A stretch of DNA of 64,000 nt. Source: Bradyrhizobium sp. Tv2a-2 (GTDB taxonomy: Bacteria; Pseudomonadota; Alphaproteobacteria; Rhizobiales; Xanthobacteraceae). The stretch covers positions 310,001 to 374,000 of the forward strand of contig NZ_AXAI01000008.1 in assembly GCF_000472425.1 (NCBI RefSeq). The letters are read 5' to 3'. The notes beneath the pieces are model-generated. The model was not told where the DNA came from and made no database searches. It saw nothing but the letters and a program-made list of their open reading frames with translations. The position numbers were made by a program, and so were the translations under genes. This document shows, piece after piece, positions 715 through 62,304 of the stretch (position 1 is the first letter of the stretch; each line of letters opens with the position of its first letter).

Positions 715-1218
715 TTGTTCAGGAGGCCGGTCGTGATCGTTCGGCGTTCCGTTGCATCAATCGCCTTGACACTAGCGCTAACTTTCTCTTCTGGGGCTTC
801 GTGCGCAGAGCTTACAAAAGATGAGGCTTACACGATTGCGAGAGATGCATACATATATGCCTATCCCTTCATGATTGAGTACGTGACCGTCCGGCAGGCG
901 GGCAACTACGCGGAGCCGACTGGAATTGTTGCCCAAGCTCCCGTCAATCAGTTCAGTCATGCGCGTGATGGAGTCGGCTTAGGGCCAGCAGACGTCATCC
1001 AATCACCTCGTCAGCATTATGAGGGAGGACGGCGGACCGCGACGCCAAGTGCTTTGGCGGTGCCGATGTTGATGGCGAAGTCGAGGGTGTGGGGTCTCGG
1101 ACCGGTAACTCACGTCGACGAGCTGACAAAGTCATCGTCCGGTGTCGAAACGATGCAGTCCGTCGGGGACGTCGTAGCCCCAGATTTCATACATGCGCGC
1201 GATGATATCCGCCATTAA
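715..1218 (+). pseudogene. DUF1254-family envelope protein, truncated remnant
   Basis: The first ~85 codons encode a signal peptide (residues about 8-31, ending SGASCA) and then the start of a DUF1254 domain, seen as AYIYAYPFMIEYVTVRQAG and APVNQFSHAR. Intact members of this family run to 400 or more residues and carry a DUF1214 partner domain. Here the similarity stops at about base 972, and the following ~80 codons resemble nothing and run into the end of the convergent lysR gene. I read it as a gene decapitated by a deletion or rearrangement. The start is a TTG in the conceptual frame with no clear ribosome site. Confidence 0.6.
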
Positions 1219-2064
1219 GCCGAGCTCCGGCATCTTGTCGCCAAGACGATAACTCATGATGATCGGCGAGGTCGCGGGCTCGACCAGTCGCTTGTAGCGC
1301 ACGCCTTCGACGCGCGACTTTTGCACAGAGACGGGAACGATGCAGACGCCTTCTTCGGCGGCGACCAGGCCGACGGCGATCTGGAGTTCGCGTGCCTCAT
1401 GCGCGATGCGTGGCTCGAGTCCGCGGTCGTGGAAGAGTGCAATCACCTGGTCAGCGTAGCCCGGCCGTGGCGCACGTGGGTAGAGAATGAGGCGCTCGTC
1501 CGCGAGCTGTTCGAGCGACACCGGGCCGCTTTGCTTCTCCAAGGGATGATCGATCGGCAATGCCGCCATCAAAGGCTCCTCGCGTAGTATTATGCGCCGG
1601 ACCTCGTCGTCATCGAAGCGCACGCGTCCGAAGCCGATGTCGATCCGGCCTTCCTTCAGGGCGCCGATCTGCTCGAGGCTGACGAGCTCGACAAGGTGGA
1701 GCTCGACCTCCGGCGCCGCTCGTCGAAATTCTCGGATGAGTTCGGGTAGATGCCCGTAGAGCACCGAACCCACGAAGCCGATGACGAATTGCCTTTTCTC
1801 GATCTTGAGTGCGCGCTTCATCATCGTGCGCATCTCTTCGACGCGCGACAGTACCTGGACGGCCTGTTCGTAGAAGAGCCGCCCCGGTTCGGTGAGCCTC
1901 AATGGCCGCGACGAGCGATCGATCAGTTCGGCTCCGACCTCGCCTTCGAGTTGCTGGATCTGCCGGCTCAGCGGCGGTTGTGCGATGTGCAGCCGGTCAG
2001 CCGCGCGCGAGAAGTTGCGCTCGTTGGCCAGGGTCACGAAGTAGCGGAGCTGCCTTAGGTCCAT
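1132..2064 (-). CDS. LysR-family regulator of the cat/ben operon (CatR/BenM type)
   Basis: The 310-residue protein has an N-terminal winged-helix domain (residues 1-60, beginning MDLRQLRYFVTLANERNFSR, with the recognition helix around AQPPLSRQIQQLE) and a periplasmic-binding-like effector domain (about 90-300). It is divergent from catB, and a perfect ATAC-N7-GTAT site lies only 8 bp from its start codon. In the CatM/BenM/CatR family such proteins respond to cis,cis-muconate (BenM also to benzoate) and activate the divergent catabolic genes while repressing themselves. Position and motif make this the expected regulator of the seven-gene operon. Which effector it senses cannot be told from sequence. 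Confidence 0.9.
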   Translation of the reverse strand: MDLRQLRYFVTLANERNFSRAADRLHIAQPPLSRQIQQLEGEVGAELIDRSSRPLRLTEPGRLFYEQAVQVLSRVEEMRTMMKRALKIEKRQFVIGFVGSVLYGHLPELIREFRRAAPEVELHLVELVSLEQIGALKEGRIDIGFGRVRFDDDEVRRIILREEPLMAALPIDHPLEKQSGPVSLEQLADERLILYPRAPRPGYADQVIALFHDRGLEPRIAHEARELQIAVGLVAAEEGVCIVPVSVQKSRVEGVRYKRLVEPATSPIIMSYRLGDKMPELGLMADIIARMYEIWGYDVPDGLHRFDTGR

Positions 2065-2072
2065 AACAAACT

Positions 2073-2087
2073 ATACCTTTAGGGTAT
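2073..2087 (+). promoter_or_regulatory. LysR operator, ATAC-N7-GTAT, between lysR and catB
   Basis: The bases read ATACCTTTAGGGTAT, a perfect ATAC-N7-GTAT dyad, which is the consensus for CatM/BenM-type regulators. It lies 8-22 bp upstream of the lysR start and covers that gene's best ribosome site (AAAGG on the minus strand), so bound regulator would block its own expression. It is about 85 bp upstream of the catB GTG, as expected for an activation site. Only one perfect copy was seen; a weaker activation subsite may lie nearer catB. Confidence 0.75.
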
Positions 2088-2171
2088 AATTTGTAAACCC
2101 AATCGGTCTTTGCCGTCTCCGCCGCCTGCATCTAGTTTTCAGCCAAGAAATGCGAATTCGAGGATGCGCCG

Positions 2172-3335
2172 GTGACGATAAAAGCTACCCAGATCGATAC
2201 CTTTATTGTCGATATTCCGACGATCCGTCCGCACGTGCTCGCCATGGCGACCATGCGGAGCCAAGCGGTCGTCCTGGTACGGATCACTTGTGCCGACGGA
2301 ATTGCCGGCATCGGGGAGGGGACCACCATCGGTGGCCTGAGCTACGGCAACGAAAGCCCCGAAGGTATCAAGCTTGCCATCGACACCTACATCGCGCCGG
2401 TTCTCAAGACCTGCGACGTTTCGAGGGTGGCCGAAGCGATGGCAAAGGTCGGTCGCAGCGTCGTCGGCAACCACATCGCCAAGTGCGCGGTCGAGACGGC
2501 ATTGCTCGATGCTGCCGGTAAGCGACTGGGCGTGCCTGTCTCCGAGTTGATCGGCGGAGGGCGCGTACGCGATCGCCTGCCAGTCGCCTGGACGCTCGCA
2601 AGCGGCGACACTGCGCGAGATATCGAGGAAGCCGAGGCGATGATCGAGGCCAGGCGGCATTCGATCTTCAAGCTGAAGATCGGCAAGCGCAGCGTGGTCG
2701 ACGACGTCGCGCATGTCGCGGCGATCAAAAAGGCACTCGGTGACCGCGGTAGCGTCCGCGTCGACGTCAATCAGGGGTGGGACGAGGCGCAGGCCGACGT
2801 CGGGATGAAGATGTTGGCCGACGCCGGCTGCGACCTGGTCGAGCAGCCGATCGCGCGCGACGCGCTTTGCGCCATGGCGCGTCTCTCAGCCCGACACGCT
2901 ATCCCGCTGATGGCCGACGAAGCGCTGCACGGTCCGCGCGATGCCTTTCGCGTAGCGGCAGGCGCCAGCGCCCGCGTGTTTGCCGTGAAGATCGCCCAGT
3001 CGGGCGGACTCCATCCCGGTCGCGACGTTGCCGCCATCGCCGAAGCCTCGGGCATCGGTCTTTATGGTGGCACCATGCTCGAGGCCGGCGTCGGAACGGC
3101 AGCTTCCGCCCATCTCTTTGCGACGTTTCCCCAGCTTGCGTGGGGCACCGAGCTGTTCGGTCCCTTGCTGCTGACGGAGGAAATTCTCACCGAGCCACTT
3201 GATTACGCCGATTTCTCGTTGGGCGTTCCGATCGGTCCCGGCCTCGGCATCGAGCTCGACGAGGAAAAGGTCGCTCGATTCCGCCGGGATCGGACGGCGC
3301 CGACCTTGCATGTCGTCGCGGCGAGGGGAGCTTGA
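2172..3335 (+). CDS. catB: muconate cycloisomerase (cis,cis-muconate lactonizing enzyme)
   Basis: This 387-residue enolase-superfamily enzyme converts cis,cis-muconate to muconolactone in the catechol branch of the beta-ketoadipate pathway. The catalytic set is visible: KLK at 167-169 (Lys169 general base), metal ligands Asp198, Glu224 and Asp249, and Lys273. An N-terminal capping domain covers about 1-125 and the TIM barrel the remainder. The start is GTG at 2172, with CGAGGA about 8 bp upstream. It is the first gene of the operon and its stop is 3 bp before catC. Confidence 0.93.
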   Translation: MTIKATQIDTFIVDIPTIRPHVLAMATMRSQAVVLVRITCADGIAGIGEGTTIGGLSYGNESPEGIKLAIDTYIAPVLKTCDVSRVAEAMAKVGRSVVGNHIAKCAVETALLDAAGKRLGVPVSELIGGGRVRDRLPVAWTLASGDTARDIEEAEAMIEARRHSIFKLKIGKRSVVDDVAHVAAIKKALGDRGSVRVDVNQGWDEAQADVGMKMLADAGCDLVEQPIARDALCAMARLSARHAIPLMADEALHGPRDAFRVAAGASARVFAVKIAQSGGLHPGRDVAAIAEASGIGLYGGTMLEAGVGTAASAHLFATFPQLAWGTELFGPLLLTEEILTEPLDYADFSLGVPIGPGLGIELDEEKVARFRRDRTAPTLHVVAARGA

Positions 3336-3685: not shown

Positions 3686-4579
3686 ATGGATACGAGCTTC
3701 GTGAAAACCCCCGAAGTCCAGGCATTGCTCGACAAGGCGGCGGGCCTTAATCAAAGCGGCGGGAATTCTCGTCTGAAGGCGATCGTTCGCGACATCGTCG
3801 AGGCCGGTGCGGAAATCATCGTTCGGCACGACATCAGCGAGGACGAATTCTGGGGCGCCGTCAACTTCCTGCAGAAGGGTGCGCCGGAATTCGGCTTGCT
3901 GGTACCGGGCTCGGGACTCGAGCACTTCCTCGATCTGTTCATGGACGCGAAAGACGCGGAGGCCGGTCGCACCGGCGGCACGCCACGCACCATCGAGGGA
4001 CCTCTCTACGTGGCGGGCGCTCCGCTCGAGGAAGGCGACGTCAATCTGACCAAGGATTCGGACGAGACCGGCAGCCTCTACATGAGGGGTCGCGTCACCG
4101 GTCCGGACGGCGAGCCGGCCAAGGATGCGATTCTGCACGTTTGGCATGCCAACTCGCAGGGCTGGTACTCGCATTTCGATCCGACCCGCGAACAGACGCC
4201 CTTCAACAATCGCGCCCGTATCAAGCTCGGTCCCGACGGAAAGTATTCATTCCACTCCAAGATGCCGAACGGCTACTCCGTGCCCGAAGGCGGCGCGACC
4301 GACACGCTGATGAAGGCGATCGGCCGTCACGGTCATCGGCCGGCGCACGTGCACTTCTTCATCGAGGCGCCCGGGTACCGGAAGCTGACGACCCAAATCA
4401 ATTTCGGCGACGATCCGCATGCGGCCGACGACTTCGCCTTCGCCACCCGCGACGGTTTGCTGCCGCTCCCGCAGCGCCAGGGCGACACCGCCTACATCAA
4501 CTTCGACTTCCAGCTGCAGCGCGCCGCCAGCGGCACCGATGAACACCTTTCGAGCCGACCACGCGCCGAGGTCGCGTGA
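3686..4579 (+). CDS. catA: catechol 1,2-dioxygenase
   Basis: This 297-residue intradiol dioxygenase cleaves catechol to cis,cis-muconate with non-haem Fe(III). The four iron ligands are present: Tyr161 (in GWYSHFDP), Tyr197 (NGYSVP), His221 and His223 (RPAHVHF). The N-terminal helical dimerisation domain typical of catechol (rather than protocatechuate) dioxygenases occupies about residues 1-100. The start has a GGGAGAG ribosome site. Its product feeds catB and its substrate comes from benABCD downstream. Confidence 0.95.
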   Translation: MDTSFVKTPEVQALLDKAAGLNQSGGNSRLKAIVRDIVEAGAEIIVRHDISEDEFWGAVNFLQKGAPEFGLLVPGSGLEHFLDLFMDAKDAEAGRTGGTPRTIEGPLYVAGAPLEEGDVNLTKDSDETGSLYMRGRVTGPDGEPAKDAILHVWHANSQGWYSHFDPTREQTPFNNRARIKLGPDGKYSFHSKMPNGYSVPEGGATDTLMKAIGRHGHRPAHVHFFIEAPGYRKLTTQINFGDDPHAADDFAFATRDGLLPLPQRQGDTAYINFDFQLQRAASGTDEHLSSRPRAEVA

Positions 4580-4628
4580 GCCCCGCGCACAGCTGACGCG
4601 ATAACGAAAACGAAGAGGAGAGGAAGCG

Positions 4629-5999
4629 ATGACGACACTTCTGGAGCGTATCGACGGCGCGGTGGTCGAAGACAGGCAGCTCGGACTATTCCGCTGCCGT
4701 CGCGACATCTTCACCGATGTCGAGATGTACGAACTCGAGATGGAGCACATCTTCGAAGGCAACTGGGTGTTTCTGGCGCATGAGAGCCAGATACCTGATA
4801 ACAACGACTACTTCAGCACCTGGATCGGCCGCAAGCCGATCATGATCACCCGCGATAAGTCGGGCGAGCTCCACGCCATGATCAATGCCTGCGCGCATCG
4901 CGGTGCGATGCTCTGCCGGCGCAAGCACGGCAACAAGGGTAGTTTCACCTGTCCCTTCCACGGCTGGACCTTCAGCAATACGGGTAAGCTCCTGAAGGTC
5001 AAGGATGGCAAGACCGGCGACTATCCGGCTTCGTTCAATACTCACGGTTCGCACGACCTTGCGAGAGTCCCACGGTTCGAAAGCTACCGGGGATTCCTGT
5101 TCGGCAGCCTCAATCCGGACGTCGTGGCGCTCGAAGAGCATCTCGGCGGCGCGAAGGCCGTGATCGACCAGATCGTCGATGGAGCGCCCGACGGCATCGA
5201 GGTGCTCCGCGGAAACTCCTCCTACATCTACGACGGCAACTGGAAGCTTCAGATGGAGAACGGTGCCGACGGCTACCACGTTAGCTCCGTCCACTGGAAT
5301 TACTCGGCGACCATGGGCCATCGCAACTATGAGACCGAGGGCACCAAGACGGTCGACGCCAACGGCTGGTCCAAGAGCATAGGCGGCGTCTACAGCTTCG
5401 AGAACGGCCACATCCTGCTCTGGACCAACCTGCTCAACCCCGAGGTTCGGCCGATCTTCAACCACAGGGAAGCGCTCGAAGCGCGCCTCGGCAAGGACCG
5501 CGCCGGCTTCATCGTCGGCCAGACCCGCAATCTCGGAATCTATCCAAACGTCTATCTCATGGATCAGTTCTCGACGCAGATCCGAGTGGTGCGGCCGATC
5601 AGCGTCGACCGGACCGAGGTCACCATCTACTGCTTCGCGCCCAAGGGAGAGGACGCGAAGGAGAGGGCGATCCGTATCCGTCAGTACGAAGACTTCTTCA
5701 ACGTCTCCGGTATGGGCACCCCGGACGACCTCGAGGAATTCCGCGCGTGTCAGACCGCTTACGTCGGCGCCGGCGAACTCTGGAACGACCTCAGCCGCGG
5801 TGCCGTCCATTGGATCGATGGTCCGGACGAGAACGCCAAGGCGATCGGGCTGAAGCCGCTTTTGAGCGGCGAGCGTAGCGAGGACGAAGGCCTGTTCGTC
5901 CGCCAGCACGAATTCTGGGCCAGGTCGCTGCGCGAAGCGATCTTACGGAACGGCGGCGACACGCTCGGTGTCGTCTCGATACAGGGAGAAGCGGCATGA
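4629..5999 (+). CDS. benA: benzoate 1,2-dioxygenase, large (alpha) subunit
   Basis: The 456-residue Rieske oxygenase alpha subunit hydroxylates benzoate to the cis-diol carboxylate. The Rieske centre is formed by Cys88-x-His90 and Cys108-x2-His111. The mononuclear iron site shows Asp214, His217 and His222 (ADGYHVSSVHWN), where the Asp bridges to the neighbouring subunit's Rieske centre. An AGAGGAG ribosome site precedes the ATG. The stop overlaps the benB start (ATGA), indicating coupled translation of the two subunits. Toluate dioxygenase (XylX) is the close alternative; the neighbouring cat genes and lack of plasmid meta-cleavage genes favour benzoate. Confidence 0.93.
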   Translation: MTTLLERIDGAVVEDRQLGLFRCRRDIFTDVEMYELEMEHIFEGNWVFLAHESQIPDNNDYFSTWIGRKPIMITRDKSGELHAMINACAHRGAMLCRRKHGNKGSFTCPFHGWTFSNTGKLLKVKDGKTGDYPASFNTHGSHDLARVPRFESYRGFLFGSLNPDVVALEEHLGGAKAVIDQIVDGAPDGIEVLRGNSSYIYDGNWKLQMENGADGYHVSSVHWNYSATMGHRNYETEGTKTVDANGWSKSIGGVYSFENGHILLWTNLLNPEVRPIFNHREALEARLGKDRAGFIVGQTRNLGIYPNVYLMDQFSTQIRVVRPISVDRTEVTIYCFAPKGEDAKERAIRIRQYEDFFNVSGMGTPDDLEEFRACQTAYVGAGELWNDLSRGAVHWIDGPDENAKAIGLKPLLSGERSEDEGLFVRQHEFWARSLREAILRNGGDTLGVVSIQGEAA

Positions 6000-28448: not shown

Positions 28449-28934
28449 CTATTCCCGCGGAGCTTTATGCTCTTCCAGCACGCGCCCCACCATGGCAGCT
28501 CGAGACGTGACGCCAAGTTTCGCGAACGTTCGGCGCAGGTGAGTGCGGACTGTCCACGAACTGATCCGGAGGGCCGAGGCGATCGTCTTGTTGTGGTAGC
28601 CTTTCGCTACCATACGAACGATCTCTCGCTCGCGTGGACTTAGAGAACTAAGCGCCGGGGGTGAGGAAGAGGTTCGAAGGAGAAGGTAGCGCGCTCCATC
28701 GACATTGATGTCCAAAATAATCTCTTCACATTCCTGCTCGGGTCGAATCGCGGACTTACAGGTAGCAGTGAGACGAATGAGCCGGCGAACAACTTCTTCA
28801 AGATCACGTTCCTGCTCATGCGGCAGTTCCTCGTTAACGCGATCCAGGGATTGTCGGAACGACACAGCCGTTGCCCTACGCTTACAAGCAGCATGAAGCG
28901 CTGAAACCGTCGTTGGTTCTGCTGAAACAGACAC
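28449..28934 (-). CDS. LuxR-type HTH regulator, divergent from the putative RiPP genes
   Basis: The 161-residue protein has a helical N-terminal region of unknown type and a C-terminal GerE-like HTH (about 92-155: LSPREREIVRMVAKGYHNKT, then SSWTVRTHLRRTFAKLGV). There is no receiver or autoinducer domain. It is divergently placed from the tandem small genes at 29329 and 29716, 394 bp away, and a 20-bp-period direct repeat lies between. This arrangement makes it the likely local regulator. Confidence 0.85.
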   Translation of the reverse strand: MSVSAEPTTVSALHAACKRRATAVSFRQSLDRVNEELPHEQERDLEEVVRRLIRLTATCKSAIRPEQECEEIILDINVDGARYLLLRTSSSPPALSSLSPREREIVRMVAKGYHNKTIASALRISSWTVRTHLRRTFAKLGVTSRAAMVGRVLEEHKAPRE

Positions 28935-28997
28935 ACGACAAGGTTGCTATATTACCACTGAAACAGCCATAAGGTGCAAGTCACTCGTTTGGGCGAC

Positions 28998-29036
28998 GCG
29001 CGACAAAATCTCGCACTGCGCGACAAATGTTCGCAC
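28998..29036. promoter_or_regulatory. two 19-bp direct repeats, 20-bp period, in the luxR/RiPP divergent region
   Basis: GCGCGACAAAATCTCGCAC (28998-29016) is repeated as GCGCGACAAATGTTCGCAC (29018-29036), matching at 16 of 19 positions. The 20-bp period equals two helical turns, placing both on one DNA face, as for tandem regulator sites. The remainder of the 394-bp gap holds no recognisable gene. Confidence 0.5.
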
Positions 29037-29328
29037 GGAACTGATCAGTGCATCAGCTCAATTGACACGCTCAAGCAGTCAGATGGCCTGAATTTTCGTG
29101 GCTTGATCGAGTTTTGCTTGGACCCAGCTGCGGGTACATGCCGAACAAGCCTGCGTGCTGGTCGCTCAAAAGGGTGACTAGCAAATCTGCTTCGTGGCTC
29201 CACTATTGCTGCAGGCAGAGCGGCGTCGTCAGCGATTTAAGAGCGTGATGATTTTACGCTGGATCAATCCGGATCGATACATCTGGATCAGGCCGTCGAC
29301 ACTTGCATCTTGGATGAGGAGGCGTCAC

Positions 29329-29637
29329 ATGGCAGAAAATTTGTTCAGCATCGACACACTGCGCGGATCAGGCACTCCGCTGATGGCTAAGATGGCTTTG
29401 GGCATGATCAGCCAGGATCTGAGCAGCGACGCAAAGGCCCGAGCTGCGTTCATTCGCGATCCGTCGGGGTTCATCAAATCCCGTTACGGAGCGTTAACTG
29501 GACCGAACGAAGATGCGTTCTTCCAGGGCCTTGCGAAGATGTATGAAGACGGAAACTGCTGCGGCGGCGGGTGCGGTTGCGGCGGCGGTGGGCAAGGGTC
29601 CGGATGCAGTGCCGCCGCTCGAGTGCGGGAAGAATAG
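29329..29637 (+). CDS. putative RiPP precursor peptide 1 (conserved leader, Cys/Gly-rich core)
   Basis: The start at 29329 is fixed by GAGGAGG 6 bp upstream and by alignment with the next gene. Of the 102 residues, 6-75 form a helical, leader-like region (SIDTLRGSG, KMALGMISQDLSSD, RAAFIRDPSGFIK). The C-terminus is Gly/Cys-rich: Cys77, Cys78, Cys82, Cys84 and Cys93 in NCCGGGCGCGGGGQGSGC, then SAAARVREE. It is followed by a near-copy and a radical-SAM enzyme. A metal-binding (metallothionein-like) protein is the alternative. Confidence 0.75.
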   Translation: MAENLFSIDTLRGSGTPLMAKMALGMISQDLSSDAKARAAFIRDPSGFIKSRYGALTGPNEDAFFQGLAKMYEDGNCCGGGCGCGGGGQGSGCSAAARVREE

Positions 29638-29715
29638 TGCGCCCCTGATGCGGCTCGAAGGGCCGCGCGAGGATAAGCCATCACGGCATCCGAAATCTCA
29701 AGCAAAGAGGTCGCC

Positions 29716-29985
29716 ATGACTGACATTTATAGCCTGGATACCCTGCGCGGCTCGGGCAGTCCGCTGCTAGCCAAAATGGCACTTGGAATGATTAGCCAGG
29801 AGCTGAGCAGCGACCCGAAGGCACGCGCCGCATTTATTCGAGATCCATCGGGCTTCATCAAGCAATACTACGGCGGAGCGGCGAGTCCGAGCGAGGAACA
29901 ATTTTTTCGGAGCTTGGCCAAGATCTATGAAAACGGCAATTGCTGTGGTGGTGGCTGCGGCTGCGGACATATCAATGACGTGTAG
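29716..29985 (+). CDS. putative RiPP precursor peptide 2 (paralogue of the preceding gene)
   Basis: The 89-residue product repeats the leader of precursor 1 with few changes (SLDTLRGSGSPLLAKMALGM, then RAAFIRDPSGFIK at about 38-50). It ends in a shorter core, NCCGGGCGCGHINDV, with Cys76, Cys77, Cys81 and Cys83. The fifth Cys and long Gly tail of precursor 1 are missing. Ribosome site AGAGG. It is 78 bp after precursor 1 and 76 bp before the radical-SAM gene, so probably co-transcribed. Confidence 0.75.
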   Translation: MTDIYSLDTLRGSGSPLLAKMALGMISQELSSDPKARAAFIRDPSGFIKQYYGGAASPSEEQFFRSLAKIYENGNCCGGGCGCGHINDV

Positions 29986-30061
29986 CCAGTGACCCGCTGC
30001 TGTATTCGAGATACCGCTGAAGAGGACGAGGCTGATTGTCTAACGCGGAAAGGCCCTGACA

Positions 30062-31465
30062 ATGATCGTCTCCTATCAAGACCGCCGCGCGTCGTTTGAT
30101 CCTGGAACACTTGCTTTCGAGCCCCTCGCTGCTTTTGAGATGGTCAACGGTGTCGGCGAGCCGTCTGGCACGGCCGCCCTGCTGCGTGACGCGCCTACGG
30201 CTGTCGGAAATGCACGGGCCTTCGAATTGCCGGGTGGCCGGGCACAACGGCAGTGGAAACGCGGGCGTTGGCTCGATCGACTGGTGCTGAACGTCGCCAA
30301 TTATTGCAATCTCGATTGCGTGTACTGCTATGCGCAGGGCGGAGACTATGGCGGCCCGCATGAACGAATGACCTTCGAAGTCGGGCGCAGCGCGTTCAGG
30401 AAGTTCTATGACACTTACGACGAAATATCACGCGTGATGTTTTTTGGCGGCGAGCCGTTATTGAACGCTGACGTGATCGAGCGACTGTGCGAATTCGGAT
30501 GGCAAACCGCAGATGAGCTCGGGCGCGCCCGGCCAACTTATACGATGATTACCAACGGCACGATCCTTTCGCCACGGATCATCGATCTGATCAAGCGGTA
30601 TCAGCTGAAAATGACGGTGAGTCTCGACGGCCCTCCGGAGATAAACGACAAGCTTCGGATCGCGCGCACGGGACAGCCGATCACACGGCGCGTCGAGGAA
30701 AACATCCGTATCCTCCAGCACGAAACCGGCCAGCCGGGTCAAATCGAAGGCACCTACACGCGGTTACACGTTGAGCAGGGCGTCAAGGTTACCGACGTGA
30801 TGGATTATATTCGCGATGAGCTCGGGATTCATCTTCTGCACATGCCCATCAACGTGTTGGGAAAGTCAAATCGGCACGATCCACTCGCGATAAGGCCCGA
30901 AGACTTCGATCTCGTAAACTCGTACTACTCCGCGGCCGTGTCCCGTTCCATTCGCGATGTCGTCACCAAGCCGGTTGACGAGCTCTGCCTCCTGAGTGCC
31001 GTAGTCGAAATGGTGGACACACTCGTTCATCCCTCGGATCACCCATCCATTTTCATTTGCCCGGCCGGCAACGGCACCATCGCTGTCGACTCAGACGGCA
31101 CCGTCTATCCTTGCTTCATGTTCTACCGGAATTCGAAGTTTCGTCTTGGCTCCGTCGTTCGACGCGATGCCAAGGTTCTCGAGGACGTCGCTCAGAAGGC
31201 GTTTGTCGAAGGTCTCAGGCCCGAAGCAATTCCGAGCCTGGCGAAATCGTGGGCATGGCGTTTTCTCCAGGGCTGTGCAGGAGGCAATTACTTCAAAAAC
31301 GAGGATCACGGCGTCGTTGCCGAGGACGAAGTTCGCTTCGTTGAAGCCATGGTCAGCGCGGCGGTCGTCGAGCTTGCTCATTTGAAGTCTGATGACCTTC
31401 AGTGGAAGTATCTTCCCATGGCCTTGAACCTGTTCAAGCTGTTTGTCGATGCGCCCAGGGAATGA
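30062..31465 (+). CDS. radical SAM / SPASM-type peptide-modifying enzyme
   Basis: The 467-residue protein has the radical-SAM [4Fe-4S] motif Cys82-x3-Cys86-x2-Cys89 (NYCNLDCVYCYAQ), the GGEP SAM motif at 129-132, MTVSLDGP at 184-191, and a C-terminal region with Cys333, Cys351 (GTVYPCFMF) and Cys405 (LQGCAGGNY), the pattern of a SPASM/twitch domain with auxiliary clusters. An N-terminal extension (1-70) may bind a leader peptide. Such enzymes make thioether or C-C links in ribosomal peptides or mature quinone cofactors. Its place behind two Cys-rich small genes points to these as substrates. Confidence 0.88.
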   Translation: MIVSYQDRRASFDPGTLAFEPLAAFEMVNGVGEPSGTAALLRDAPTAVGNARAFELPGGRAQRQWKRGRWLDRLVLNVANYCNLDCVYCYAQGGDYGGPHERMTFEVGRSAFRKFYDTYDEISRVMFFGGEPLLNADVIERLCEFGWQTADELGRARPTYTMITNGTILSPRIIDLIKRYQLKMTVSLDGPPEINDKLRIARTGQPITRRVEENIRILQHETGQPGQIEGTYTRLHVEQGVKVTDVMDYIRDELGIHLLHMPINVLGKSNRHDPLAIRPEDFDLVNSYYSAAVSRSIRDVVTKPVDELCLLSAVVEMVDTLVHPSDHPSIFICPAGNGTIAVDSDGTVYPCFMFYRNSKFRLGSVVRRDAKVLEDVAQKAFVEGLRPEAIPSLAKSWAWRFLQGCAGGNYFKNEDHGVVAEDEVRFVEAMVSAAVVELAHLKSDDLQWKYLPMALNLFKLFVDAPRE

Positions 31466-31866
31466 TAATCCACTGGCGTTCGGGTCGAATCTTGGTAACT
31501 CGCCAGTGTTCGAGGGAAAGCAGCTTGGAGAAGCGTGGACCATCCGATGCGGACCTGCTCGTGCGAGCTGCCGGCGATCTCTGGAGATGGAGCAAGACGG
31601 GATTTGACACCGTCGATGATCCAACGTTTCAGAGACGCTTGGCCGCTTGCACCGAGTGTCCCAATGTCATGCGGGCCCCCAAGCGGCTGATATACCAGGC
31701 CGTGGCCGGCGGCGATCCGAACGCTCGAATGTGCGTGCTTTGCGGGTGTATCGTCGCTCACAAGGCTCGTTTGGCTTCGGAAACTTGCCCGGATCGGGAT
31801 CCGAACAATACGGAGACGAACCGATGGGGCGAGCGGCCGAACGGAGACACCCAAGTGCAGCGCTAA
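31462..31866 (+). CDS. small Cys-cluster protein translationally coupled to the radical SAM gene
   Basis: The ATG at 31462 overlaps the radical-SAM stop (ATGA), which favours it over an in-frame start 60 bp earlier. The 134-residue product carries CTECPN at about 84-89 and CVLCGC at about 112-117, with KARLASETCP after it; this two-part CxxC/CxxCxC pattern resembles small zinc- or iron-sulfur-binding domains. It may deliver or bind the peptide, or be an electron carrier. It ends 4 bp inside the convergent P450 gene. Family not recognised. Confidence 0.7.
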   Translation: MIIHWRSGRILVTRQCSRESSLEKRGPSDADLLVRAAGDLWRWSKTGFDTVDDPTFQRRLAACTECPNVMRAPKRLIYQAVAGGDPNARMCVLCGCIVAHKARLASETCPDRDPNNTETNRWGERPNGDTQVQR

Positions 31867-50058: not shown

Positions 50059-50913
50059 CTAGCGTCGCGGCGTTCGTCCGCGTATACGGTCGAAGCCCCG
50101 CTTGATCGCTGCGAAGCGCTTGTCGATGAACGGTTCGTGCTCAGTATCGGTGAAAATGTAGGGCCAGTCGTTTTCGATGGCCTCGCGAACCAGTTCGCCC
50201 ACATAGAGCGGATCAATGCCGTTGTTGATCCGTTCCTGCAATGCCTTGATGAACTCGGCGCGGGGTCCTTCTGTCGGCGGAGGGTTGCCGACAGCCCCAG
50301 CAAATCGCTGTGGCACGTTGCGCCGAGAGTTCATGATCTGCGTGCGGACGACGCCCGGACACAGAACCGATACCCCAATCTTCCTCGGCGCGAGCACGTT
50401 ACGCATCCCCTCGGACAGCGCCACCACTCCATATTTGCTCACATCGTACGCCAGACTTGGTCCCGCAATCAGTCCGGCGACGGACGCCGTGGAAACAACC
50501 TGCCCTCCTTCGCCGTGCGCTTCGATCAGCGGACCGAAAATCTCGAAGCCCCAGATCACCGACATCAGGTTGACGCCGAGGACCCAGTTCCAGCCTGCAT
50601 CAGTCCACTCACCATAGGTGCCGCCGCCGCCCACGCCCGCATTGTTGACCAATATGTGGATTCTGCCATACCGCGCGACGGTCGCGTCCGCTGCCGCCTG
50701 AAGTTCGCCTTTGAGCGAGACGTCAGCTTTCACGCCATCGACATCGACGTTGGTCCGTGTCTTCAGGTCCGCGACCGCTTTTTTCAGCGCCTCCTCCTCG
50801 ATATCGCAGAGCATGACCTTCACCCCCGCCCGTGACAGCGCGGTCGCGATCCCCAGTCCGATCCCCGAGGCAGCGCCTGTCACGAATGCGGTCTGTCCAG
50901 CCAAGTCTCTCAT
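50059..50913 (-). CDS. short-chain dehydrogenase/reductase, paralogue of the one at 61453
   Basis: The 284-residue classical SDR has TGAASGIG (12-19), NNAGVGGGG, catalytic Ser in STASVAG and the YDVSK Tyr/Lys pair. Its substrate is unknown. It is collinear with the product at 61453-62304 over the whole length, with well over two thirds of residues identical by eye. The opposite orientation of the two copies suggests duplication or separate gain. Confidence 0.88.
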   Translation of the reverse strand: MRDLAGQTAFVTGAASGIGLGIATALSRAGVKVMLCDIEEEALKKAVADLKTRTNVDVDGVKADVSLKGELQAAADATVARYGRIHILVNNAGVGGGGTYGEWTDAGWNWVLGVNLMSVIWGFEIFGPLIEAHGEGGQVVSTASVAGLIAGPSLAYDVSKYGVVALSEGMRNVLAPRKIGVSVLCPGVVRTQIMNSRRNVPQRFAGAVGNPPPTEGPRAEFIKALQERINNGIDPLYVGELVREAIENDWPYIFTDTEHEPFIDKRFAAIKRGFDRIRGRTPRR

Positions 50914-58915: not shown

Positions 58916-58961
58916 CGTGGCTGCCGGGAAGGGGGCGTGCTTGGCCCACACCCTCCCTGTC

Positions 58962-59056
58962 ATCGCCCGCGAACGCGGGCGATCCAGTATTCCAGAGACA
59001 GCCGTGCTTGAGCCGAGAAGCCGCGGGTTACTGGATGCCCCGCCTTCGCGGGGCAT
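58962..59056. repeat. composite palindromic repeat (REP-like)
   Basis: ATCGCCCGCG-AA-CGCGGGCGAT (58962-58983) and ATGCCCCGC-CTTC-GCGGGGCAT (59035-59056) are perfect hairpins. GATCCAGTA (from 58981) pairs with TACTGGAT (59029-59036), giving a nested structure. It lies between convergent genes, where it may also help terminate both transcripts. Confidence 0.8.
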
Positions 59057-59086
59057 GACAGCCTGAAGGGGGGCGAGGCCTATGCC

Positions 59087-60467: not shown

Positions 60468-60543
60468 AGGAGTGTAGCTCAATTGGTAGAGCACCGGTCT
60501 CCAAAACCGGGGGTCGTAGGTTCGAGCCCTACCACTCCTGCCA
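60468..60543 (+). tRNA. tRNA-Trp (anticodon CCA)
   Basis: The 76-nt cloverleaf is complete: acceptor arm AGGAGTG / CACTCCT, D arm GCTC...GAGC, anticodon arm CCGGT-CTCCAAA-ACCGG with CCA at 60501-60503, T arm GTAGG-TTCGAGC-CCTAC, and encoded 3' CCA. An integrase remnant lies 58 bp downstream, as at island attachment sites. Confidence 0.97.
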
Positions 60544-60601
60544 GCCAAATCAATGGCTTAGCTGGCAATCCCGTCTCGGCGCATAACCTCCTGCAACCAT
60601 T

Positions 60602-60988
60602 TCAGCCCTGATCGCGTGATGGGCCCGCGATGGCCTTCTGATAGGCGGCGTCGATCTGGGCGGCGGCGTCATCCTGCATGCCCGGCATCACGTGCTGGTA
60701 CAGGTCCATAGTGATGCCGGTGGTAGAATGTCCGAGCCGCTCGCTAGCTACCTTAATGTGGACGCCGTTGGCCAGCATTTGGGTCGCGTGCGCGTGCCGC
60801 AAGTGATGGACCCCCCCCCGCCGAGGTAGCCCGCTCTCCTTGATGATGGCCTTGGCCCACTTCTTGGAAATCCAGCGCGGATGCGTCAGCGAGCCGTCGG
60901 GGTGGGCGCAGACTAGGGTGTCGCCGGTTTGCCGCACTCCGAGCTTTAGCAGCTCCTCAGCCTGCGCAGCCTTGTGGGCGCGCAGCAC
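60602..60988 (-). pseudogene. tyrosine recombinase (phage/island integrase), C-terminal remnant
   Basis: The 128 codons encode the catalytic half of a tyrosine integrase: HHLRHAHATQML with the catalytic His-x-x-Arg, LGHSTTGITMDLYQHV with the late His and the nucleophilic Tyr. The N-terminal DNA-binding half and first catalytic Arg are missing; upstream the sequence joins a fragment of another gene on the opposite strand at about 60995. It probably once integrated at the adjacent tRNA-Trp. Confidence 0.75.
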
Positions 60989-61452: not shown

Positions 61453-62304
61453 ATGAAAGACCTGTCTGGAAAGACGGCGTTCGTCACGGGCGCCGCATCT
61501 GGTATCGGACTGGGGATCGCTACCGCGCTGTCGCAAGCAGGAGTGAAAGTCATGCTCTGCGATATCGAGGAGGAGGCGCTGGCAAAGGCGATATCAGGCT
61601 TGAAGCTCACGAACGCTGATGTTGATGGGGTGAGAGCCGATGTCTCACTTAAGGCAGAGTTGCAGGCGGCCGCGGACGCCACCGTCGTGCGGTATGGCAA
61701 GGTCCACATTTTGGTCAACAATGCTGGGGTTGGCGCTGGCGGCAACTACGGCCGCTGGTCCGACGCGCGTTGGAATTGGGTTCTGGGCGTCAATCTGATG
61801 TCGGTGATCTGGGGGATCGAGATTTTTGGCCCGCTGATCGAAGCGCACGGCGAGGGAGGACAGATCGTCTCCACCGCATCTATCGCTGGACTGATTTCAG
61901 GAGAAGTAAATCCTCTGTACAATGTGAGCAAATATGGCGTCGTTGCGCTCTCCGAGTCACTGCGCATCACCCTTGCGCCGCGGGCGATCGGAGTGTCCAT
62001 TCTGTGTCCGGGTTTTGTCCGCACGCAAATCATGAACTCAGGCCGCAATGTCCCTCAGCGGTTCGCTAGCGCTCTTGAAGCCCCGCCGACAGAAGGTCCC
62101 GTCGCTGACGTCATCAAACAATTTCAGGAGCGGATATCCAAGGGCATCGATCCGCTCTATGTCGGCGAATTGGTTCGAGAAGGCATCGAAAATGACTGGC
62201 CATACATCTTCACTGACACTGAGTTCGAGCCCTTAATCGACGACCGCTTCGCCGCCATAAAGCAGGGCTTCGACCGTCTCCGCGGACGACAGCCGAGACA
62301 TTGA
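61453..62304 (+). CDS. short-chain dehydrogenase/reductase, paralogue of the one at 50059
   Basis: The 283-residue SDR has TGAASGIG (12-19), NNAGVGAGG, a catalytic Ser in STASIAG and the YNVSK pair. Its length and nearly all blocks match the 50059-50913 product, including WNWVLGVNLMSVIWG and IENDWPYIFTDTE; changes cluster around residues 145-160 and 205-225. Substrate unknown. It follows the rearranged tRNA/integrase area. Confidence 0.88.
   Translation: MKDLSGKTAFVTGAASGIGLGIATALSQAGVKVMLCDIEEEALAKAISGLKLTNADVDGVRADVSLKAELQAAADATVVRYGKVHILVNNAGVGAGGNYGRWSDARWNWVLGVNLMSVIWGIEIFGPLIEAHGEGGQIVSTASIAGLISGEVNPLYNVSKYGVVALSESLRITLAPRAIGVSILCPGFVRTQIMNSGRNVPQRFASALEAPPTEGPVADVIKQFQERISKGIDPLYVGELVREGIENDWPYIFTDTEFEPLIDDRFAAIKQGFDRLRGRQPRH

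Follow-up and report, generated by a model that had tools for sequence, protein, structure and literature searches.

A five-gene radical-SAM cassette of Bradyrhizobium sp. Tv2a-2 as a candidate thioether-type peptide system

What is made by a locus in which small cysteine-rich proteins are encoded next to a radical S-adenosylmethionine (radical-SAM) enzyme? The question is raised by a cassette of five genes, about 3.4 kb long (28449-31866), in a 64-kb stretch of contig NZ_AXAI01000008.1 from the 8.5-Mb genome of Bradyrhizobium sp. Tv2a-2; the whole stretch is called the window below. The answer favored here, with moderate confidence, is that the cassette is an undescribed, self-contained and probably horizontally acquired system for a thioether-type ribosomally synthesized and post-translationally modified peptide (RiPP), whose substrate, chemistry, product and role we infer. 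To the original prediction the analysis adds a second locus, evidence of selection, rarity, a Twitch-like loss of the second-cluster motif, doubt about the start of the partner, and a partner family that also occurs away from this maturase. The genes and their coordinates are as the original prediction had described them, namely a LuxR-type regulator, two tandem precursor genes, a gap of 76 bp between the second of these (A2) and the maturase gene, the motif C82-x3-C86-x2-C89 in the maturase, and a small protein with CxxC and CxxCxC. The features are listed here with identities to the orthologues in a second genome of the genus, G031:

28449..28934 (-): LuxR-type regulator of 161 residues with a GerE helix-turn-helix (Pfam GerE, 66.2 bits against a cut-off of 23.5), oriented divergently to the precursor genes; orthologue 52% identical
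29329..29637 (+): precursor A1, 102 residues, from ATG 29329 with GGAGG upstream; orthologue 80% identical, with the equivalent ATG
29551..29607 (+): putative A1 core, GNCCGGGCGCG followed by GGGQGSGC, from comparison of five precursors
29716..29985 (+): precursor A2, 89 residues; orthologue 85% identical
29935..29967 (+): putative A2 core, GNCCGGGCGCG, equal to the A1 core in every residue while differing from it at 8 of 33 nucleotides
30062..31465 (+): radical-SAM maturase, 467 residues, with a predicted Twitch-like C-terminal domain; Pfam Radical_SAM and SPASM; orthologue 82% identical
31525..31866 (+): putative six-Cys accessory protein (the partner), 113 residues from TTG 31525, or 134 if from ATG 31462; orthologue 63% identical

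In the proposed scheme, the LuxR-type protein would control the precursor genes, and each precursor would consist of a probably helical leader some 73 residues long, followed by a short Gly-rich core, N-C-C-G-x-x-C-x-C. The maturase, a CteB-like enzyme reduced to one auxiliary cluster, would recognize the leader, abstract a hydrogen in the core and join a Cys sulfur to a neighboring residue, the most likely acceptor being the alpha-carbon of Gly (a sactionine-type thioether), with a core Cys possibly bound to the auxiliary cluster. The partner would be an accessory, probably binding metal or an Fe-S cluster, that assists the maturase or the product. What the data show directly is the gene set with its conservation, selection and co-occurrence in two genomes, and the missing second-cluster motif; we infer the precursors as substrate, the thioether chemistry, the target of the regulator and the role of the partner.

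The cassette and its second locus

Genome G031 (locus L021) carries all five genes with order and orientation kept, plus a third precursor gene on the opposite strand (L021:10426-10689, -) that stands alone and has a Cys-richer end, GNCCGNQCCCSRNA; adjoining precursor genes of the leader/core type number two in the window and three in G031. When the 20 kb around the G031 cassette were compared with the window, DNA matches were limited to the cassette and the third precursor, one repeat-like stretch excepted. That stretch, about 100 bases at window positions 58959-59062, recurs with 81% identity outside the cassette at L021:5713-5816 and is perhaps an intergenic repeat. Between the two loci, nonsynonymous divergence (dN) stays below synonymous divergence (dS) in every gene, with values of 0.126 vs 1.84 for A1, 0.104 vs 1.91 for the maturase, 0.269 vs 1.49 for the partner and 0.373 vs a nearly saturated 4.9 for the regulator; dN is 0.082 for A2, where dS is saturated. 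The ratio dN/dS is 0.05-0.18 for the cassette genes with computable dS. Recurrence of all five genes in G031, at dN values far lower than dS, shows that the cassette is not a chance assembly.

The precursor and the maturase are also rare together. The precursor is present in two of 195 genomes of the genus, and the maturase in two of 195 and two of 265, the pair in every case being the Tv2a-2 genome itself and G031; a search by gene order found the Tv2a-2 genome alone (1 of 269, a sample outside which G031 lies). The reading as a RiPP cassette is drawn from this co-occurrence, from the retention of the five-gene order in two genomes in different settings, and from dN values below dS together with core residues that are constant despite codon change (see below). 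The claim that the locus is a radical-SAM RiPP system is well supported by the co-occurrence in two genomes of the genus and by CteB as the closest solved enzyme. The same distribution bears on a second explanation, in which the precursors are not the substrate and are small Cys-rich proteins beside an enzyme acting elsewhere, for example on the six-Cys protein or on a small molecule. A recognition element for the precursor (RRE) is not shown in the maturase, whose residues 1-66 are modeled with a predicted local distance difference test score (pLDDT) of about 30, and an export or protease gene is absent from the five, both of which suit this explanation; it is made distinctly improbable by the restriction of precursor and maturase to the same two genomes among all those of the genus that were searched, and by the leader/core anatomy of the precursors, with tails that diverge past the core.

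The cassette is undescribed in the open-access literature searched, which is weak evidence of novelty since most subscription papers lie outside that scope. Among the candidate regulatory signals, promoter- and terminator-like sites at the cassette are no commoner than in shuffled sequence, and the inverted repeats upstream of A1 are not alike in the window and G031.

The precursors and their putative core

The open reading frame (ORF) of A1 as called from 29194 is too long, the conserved start being ATG 29329. The leaders of A1 and A2 in the window have 52 of 74 residues in common (70%), for which the earlier description as near-identical was too strong. A1 and A2 are each more alike across the two genomes than they are to one another, and for this reason the duplication seems to predate the divergence of the two cassettes, with both copies retained. 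The 11 residues of the putative core GNCCGGGCGCG do not vary among the A1 and A2 precursors of the two genomes even though 4 to 8 of the 33 nucleotides differ pairwise, and they are followed in A1 of both genomes by GGGQGSGC, past the last Cys of which the residues diverge. The pattern NCCG-x2-C-x-C (CC-x3-C-x-C) is kept in all five precursors, and the conserved core is composed of Gly, Asn and Cys, with no aromatic residue, Lys or Asp/Glu. A structure model made from two sequences, of modest confidence (mean pLDDT 63.5), places helices at residues 16-32, 34-42, 44-52 and 58-73 and leaves the core disordered, a division that counts toward the RiPP reading.

No family in Pfam, NCBIfam or PHROGs fits either precursor, the best matches below cut-off both being to A2 (IniB_NTERM, 14.9 of 40 bits; FeoB_associated, 14.6 of 27 bits). 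In this respect the description of the system as uncharacterized holds within the libraries searched, as it does for the maturase (see below). Nif11 peptides have a long leader before a Cys/Gly-rich end, and the maturase does score against the NlpM model that goes with such peptides (118.5 bits of 518.7); among the Pfam and NCBIfam matches listed for the two precursors (E up to 1), none is to a Nif11 or NHLP leader model, in searches where HMMER filters can drop weak matches. In SCIFF peptides the Cys are spread through a short peptide, in contrast to their confinement here to the C-terminal end of 89-102 residues. The leader model finds no match in the PDB (best E 2.5), and a PDB sequence-profile search likewise returned nothing for the precursors (best E 0.069).

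Wider scans produced candidates that were set aside. Five Aeromonas loci from a precursor scan of 84,980 species genomes, a sample that may lack the Tv2a-2 genome or others close to it, were taken as chance, a judgment made from one locus (L014) in which the match lies inside an ORF that is DnaJ-like by eye ('DPKARAAF'). A precursor profile run against 398 genomes of the phylum found the Tv2a-2 genome plus eight with one match each at E 0.0033-0.0099, which were taken as noise. No precursor was found in the plasmids searched, and no relative of it in a scan of viral contigs.

The maturase and its likely chemistry

The radical-SAM core of the maturase is clear (Pfam Radical_SAM 56.7 bits, cut-off 29.5), and the SPASM model of Pfam is matched at residues 333-369 (23.9 bits, cut-off 21.5). 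The original prediction had called the enzyme SPASM-type, and the first half of that motif is indeed kept, as C333-x12-G-x4-C351. The full seven-Cys SPASM motif, CX9-15GX4C-CX2CX5CX3C-C, does not occur in the protein, and the second half is lost. Past residue 143 both orthologues have four Cys (C309, C333, C351 and C405) and none after C405, and alignment with three non-orthologous relatives puts L393, S396 and L402 of both in place of CX2CX5C. The column of C405 holds Cys in two of these three relatives and Gly in the third, SCIFF-like one. Because the first half of the SPASM motif is all that is kept, the maturase is expected to be Twitch-like, with one auxiliary cluster.

The register of C405 depends on the alignment used. 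In a 16-row alignment, the 12 rows with CX2CX5CX2C align its Cys to window residues 396, 399, 405 and 408, making C405 the third Cys; in a five-row alignment it is the fourth. The five-row register is preferred because a relative from genome G331 aligns there gap-free, with P, WA and GC in common, while another at locus L024 has WA in common. In either register, at most one of those four Cys is retained. The additional rows come from a viral-contig scan with five maturases, which yielded 59 distant radical-SAM loci (best 28%), 15 of them used as alignment rows; 12 of the 15 hold CX2CX5CX2C and a later Cys, and the remaining three are incomplete or lack it. The same scan with two maturases gave no relative.

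Passages of PMC10452713 on these domains define Twitch by a set of three or four Cys that serves one auxiliary cluster, and assign the clusters of AhbD to C223, C256, C274 and C324 (auxiliary cluster I, Aux I) and to C312, C315, C321 and C342 (Aux II). By this scheme C309, C333, C351 and C405 would hold Aux I, and Aux II would be lost; the gap between the second and third auxiliary Cys is 17 residues, as in AhbD. C309 may be a ligand, or the auxiliary site may be open for a substrate Cys, as in CteB, where an open Aux I site is filled by a Cys of the substrate fragment according to PMC6231123. The assignment is made from sequence; the structure model is good in the core and poor in the auxiliary domain and N-terminus (mean pLDDT 58.5) and does not settle the cluster geometry.

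The thioether chemistry is suggested first by the nearest relatives. CteB is the closest solved structure by profile (5wgg, E 1.2e-27) and by fold (Foldseek, 5why, 6.5e-17, with 5wgg also matched), and the best NCBIfam scores are those of PapB (NF047865, 132.8 of 340 bits), SCIFF (TIGR03974, 132.6 of 425 bits) and NlpM (TIGR04064), although a cut-off is reached by none of the best 25 of 74 families (E up to 1), which include QhpD and GggB as well. CteB, the SCIFF maturase that acts on the Cys-rich peptide CteA, resembles the maturase here in its radical-SAM core and differs in having two auxiliary clusters, CX2CX5C being lost here. A second argument comes from SkfB, which according to PMC6231123 starts a thioether in SkfA with a one-cluster Twitch domain, a truncated SPASM. 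This likeness goes along with differences, as SkfB stands at rank 17 in the Foldseek results, has a CXC in its auxiliary site that does not occur here, and acts on a different precursor. PapB, despite its top score, joins Cys to Asp/Glu (PMC9413430), and the conserved core here has neither.

It is possible, if rather unlikely, that the precursors are modified in some other way, by a C-C or ether link, epimerization or another change, and that the four Cys stay as thiols that bind metal. Similar folds are also found in enzymes that catalyze other reactions (among them EpeE, an epimerase, and SuiB), a six-Cys partner adjoins, and the spacing CC-x3-C-x-C is one that we take to be metal-ligand-like, which counts for this alternative; standing against it, the top-scoring families and structures are thioether maturases, and the conserved core lacks the aromatic, Lys and Asp/Glu residues. 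The suggestion of the original prediction that the peptide may bind metal is less well supported, as are its labels SPASM-type and ATGA-coupled. A further alternative, in which the cassette makes a peptide-derived cofactor or matures a protein for an enzyme encoded elsewhere (as for pyrroloquinoline quinone, mycofactocin or the QhpD-processed dehydrogenase subunit), has in its favor a score of 113.4 bits against the QhpD model (cut-off 453) and the absence of export genes from the five, and is most improbable given that no target enzyme is common to both loci and that DNA matches near the cassette end at its edges.

If the thioether reading is true, the cassette represents a radical-SAM peptide family whose precursors are unmodeled in the family libraries searched, and the maturase is a natural one-cluster relative of CteB that offers a direct test of the part played by the second auxiliary cluster in thioether formation. 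A bolder version, quite unlikely at present, is that of a new RiPP class in which a maturase of the CteB lineage has dispensed with its second auxiliary cluster, a dedicated six-Cys metalloprotein replacing it as an electron path or in thiol handling, and the products are CC-x3-C-x-C peptides with Cys-Gly crosslinks that serve to capture metal; this accessory would have been recruited from a family otherwise found beside phosphoesterase or injection-type loci.

Three relatives of the maturase were considered and rejected as further members. The G331 protein (31%, from a family search) has CX2CX5C intact and no precursor match within 11.7 kb. A relative on a Methylocystis parvus plasmid (33%) follows transposon-type genes and has no precursor match; at L023:2486-7149 genes for a transposase, TniB and TniQ directly precede the Methylocystis radical-SAM gene, a position that would suit transposon cargo. 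The match in Acetoanaerobium noterae (L024) looks by eye like a SCIFF maturase with a SCIFF-like peptide next to it; at L024:5494-7104 of a 2.6-Mb replicon, the radical-SAM gene lies with a small Cys-rich ORF of 49 residues that is unannotated.

The six-Cys partner and the genomic setting

The partner was first described as coupled to the maturase through an ATGA overlap, an arrangement that is not conserved because the G031 partner starts at an ATG 64 nt past the maturase stop. The corresponding codon of the window is TTG 31525, which is preceded by GAGGGA and is probably the start there. The protein falls below every family cut-off (DUF6171, 17.7 of 27 bits), and a PDB sequence-profile search returned nothing for it (best E 0.37); it matches phrog_13558 (E 2.7e-7), a PHROG of unknown function, and one weak phage record.

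Relatives of the partner have a life of their own. They were found in eight plasmid records by tblastn and in one other of 289 genomes of the class by profile, giving nine loci in three phyla (Pseudomonadota, Actinomycetota and Bacillota), at about 8000-8330 of L025-L032 and at L046 8586-8948. They have an extra N-terminal part, and all six Cys, together with R-W, are invariant in the seven sequences aligned (the window, G031 and five of the nine other loci), the five non-orthologous rows being 35-39% identical. The relative lies directly after a PF04185 phosphoesterase gene in two of six annotated plasmid records (Azospirillum and Sinorhizobium), in Tc-like clusters in Burkholderia pyrrocinia and Mycetohabitans, and in an injection-type cluster in one record of Streptomyces canus; another S. 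canus record fits none of these settings. Neither the precursor nor this maturase was found in the nine loci, the best E being 0.007 for the maturase (L046) and 0.023 for the precursor (inside the partner relative of L032).

A wide occurrence of the small proteins without the radical-SAM gene had been named in the original prediction as a refuting condition, and it applies in part, to relatives of the partner and not to the precursors. By core profile and motif count, eight of the nine loci have no recognizable radical-SAM gene, the CX3CX2C in L029 falling in an ORF without a profile match. In the ninth, from genome G1157 (L046), the partner relative is followed downstream, at distances of about 3 and 6 kb and on its own strand, by radical-SAM/SPASM genes at 4504-5604 and 922-2592 (-); the cluster also includes genes for a sugar epimerase and a protein of dehydroquinate-synthase type. 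The two radical-SAM genes are not close to the maturase, as a profile of its core finds one at E 9e-5 and does not list the other within E 10. The partner was therefore probably recruited from a separate family, its role here being the least certain part of the scheme, and it offers a way into a protein family seen in three phyla whose function is unknown.

Several points weigh against the thioether-RiPP reading. The cassette is known from two genomes, so that the co-occurrence is based on two loci, and its five conserved genes include no peptidase or transporter. An RRE is not discernible in the poorly modeled N-terminus of the maturase. Gly as the acceptor is a guess, and C-C links, ether links and epimers are also among the products of radical-SAM enzymes built in a similar way. 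Finally, because relatives of the partner mostly lie away from radical-SAM genes, the link between partner and maturase is one of position.

That the cassette was probably acquired horizontally is concluded from its base composition, since GC and GC content at third codon positions (GC3) are both below the surroundings. GC is 0.569 in the cassette, with 0.623 to the left and 0.622 to the right, and 0.554 vs 0.63 in G031; GC3 is 0.53-0.68 in the five cassette genes vs 0.75-0.83 in five neighboring genes. No integrase or transposase was found by Pfam among the five genes. Both flanks of the cassette were found in 12 of 40 other genomes, none of the 40 having a readable empty site. In the four genomes with both flanks on one contig they are at least 0.36 Mb apart, weaker second copies counted, and for this reason the cassette seems to mark a join between stretches that usually lie separate from each other; in the other eight the flanks are on different contigs, where adjacency stays possible.

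Two further features of the window lie to the right of the cassette. At 60468-60988 a tRNA-Trp gene is followed by a short ORF that looks by eye like an integrase remnant and may mark the edge of an old island. At 50059-50913 (-) and 61453-62304 (+), about 11 kb apart and in opposite orientation, are two genes, by eye short-chain dehydrogenases, whose starts are very similar.

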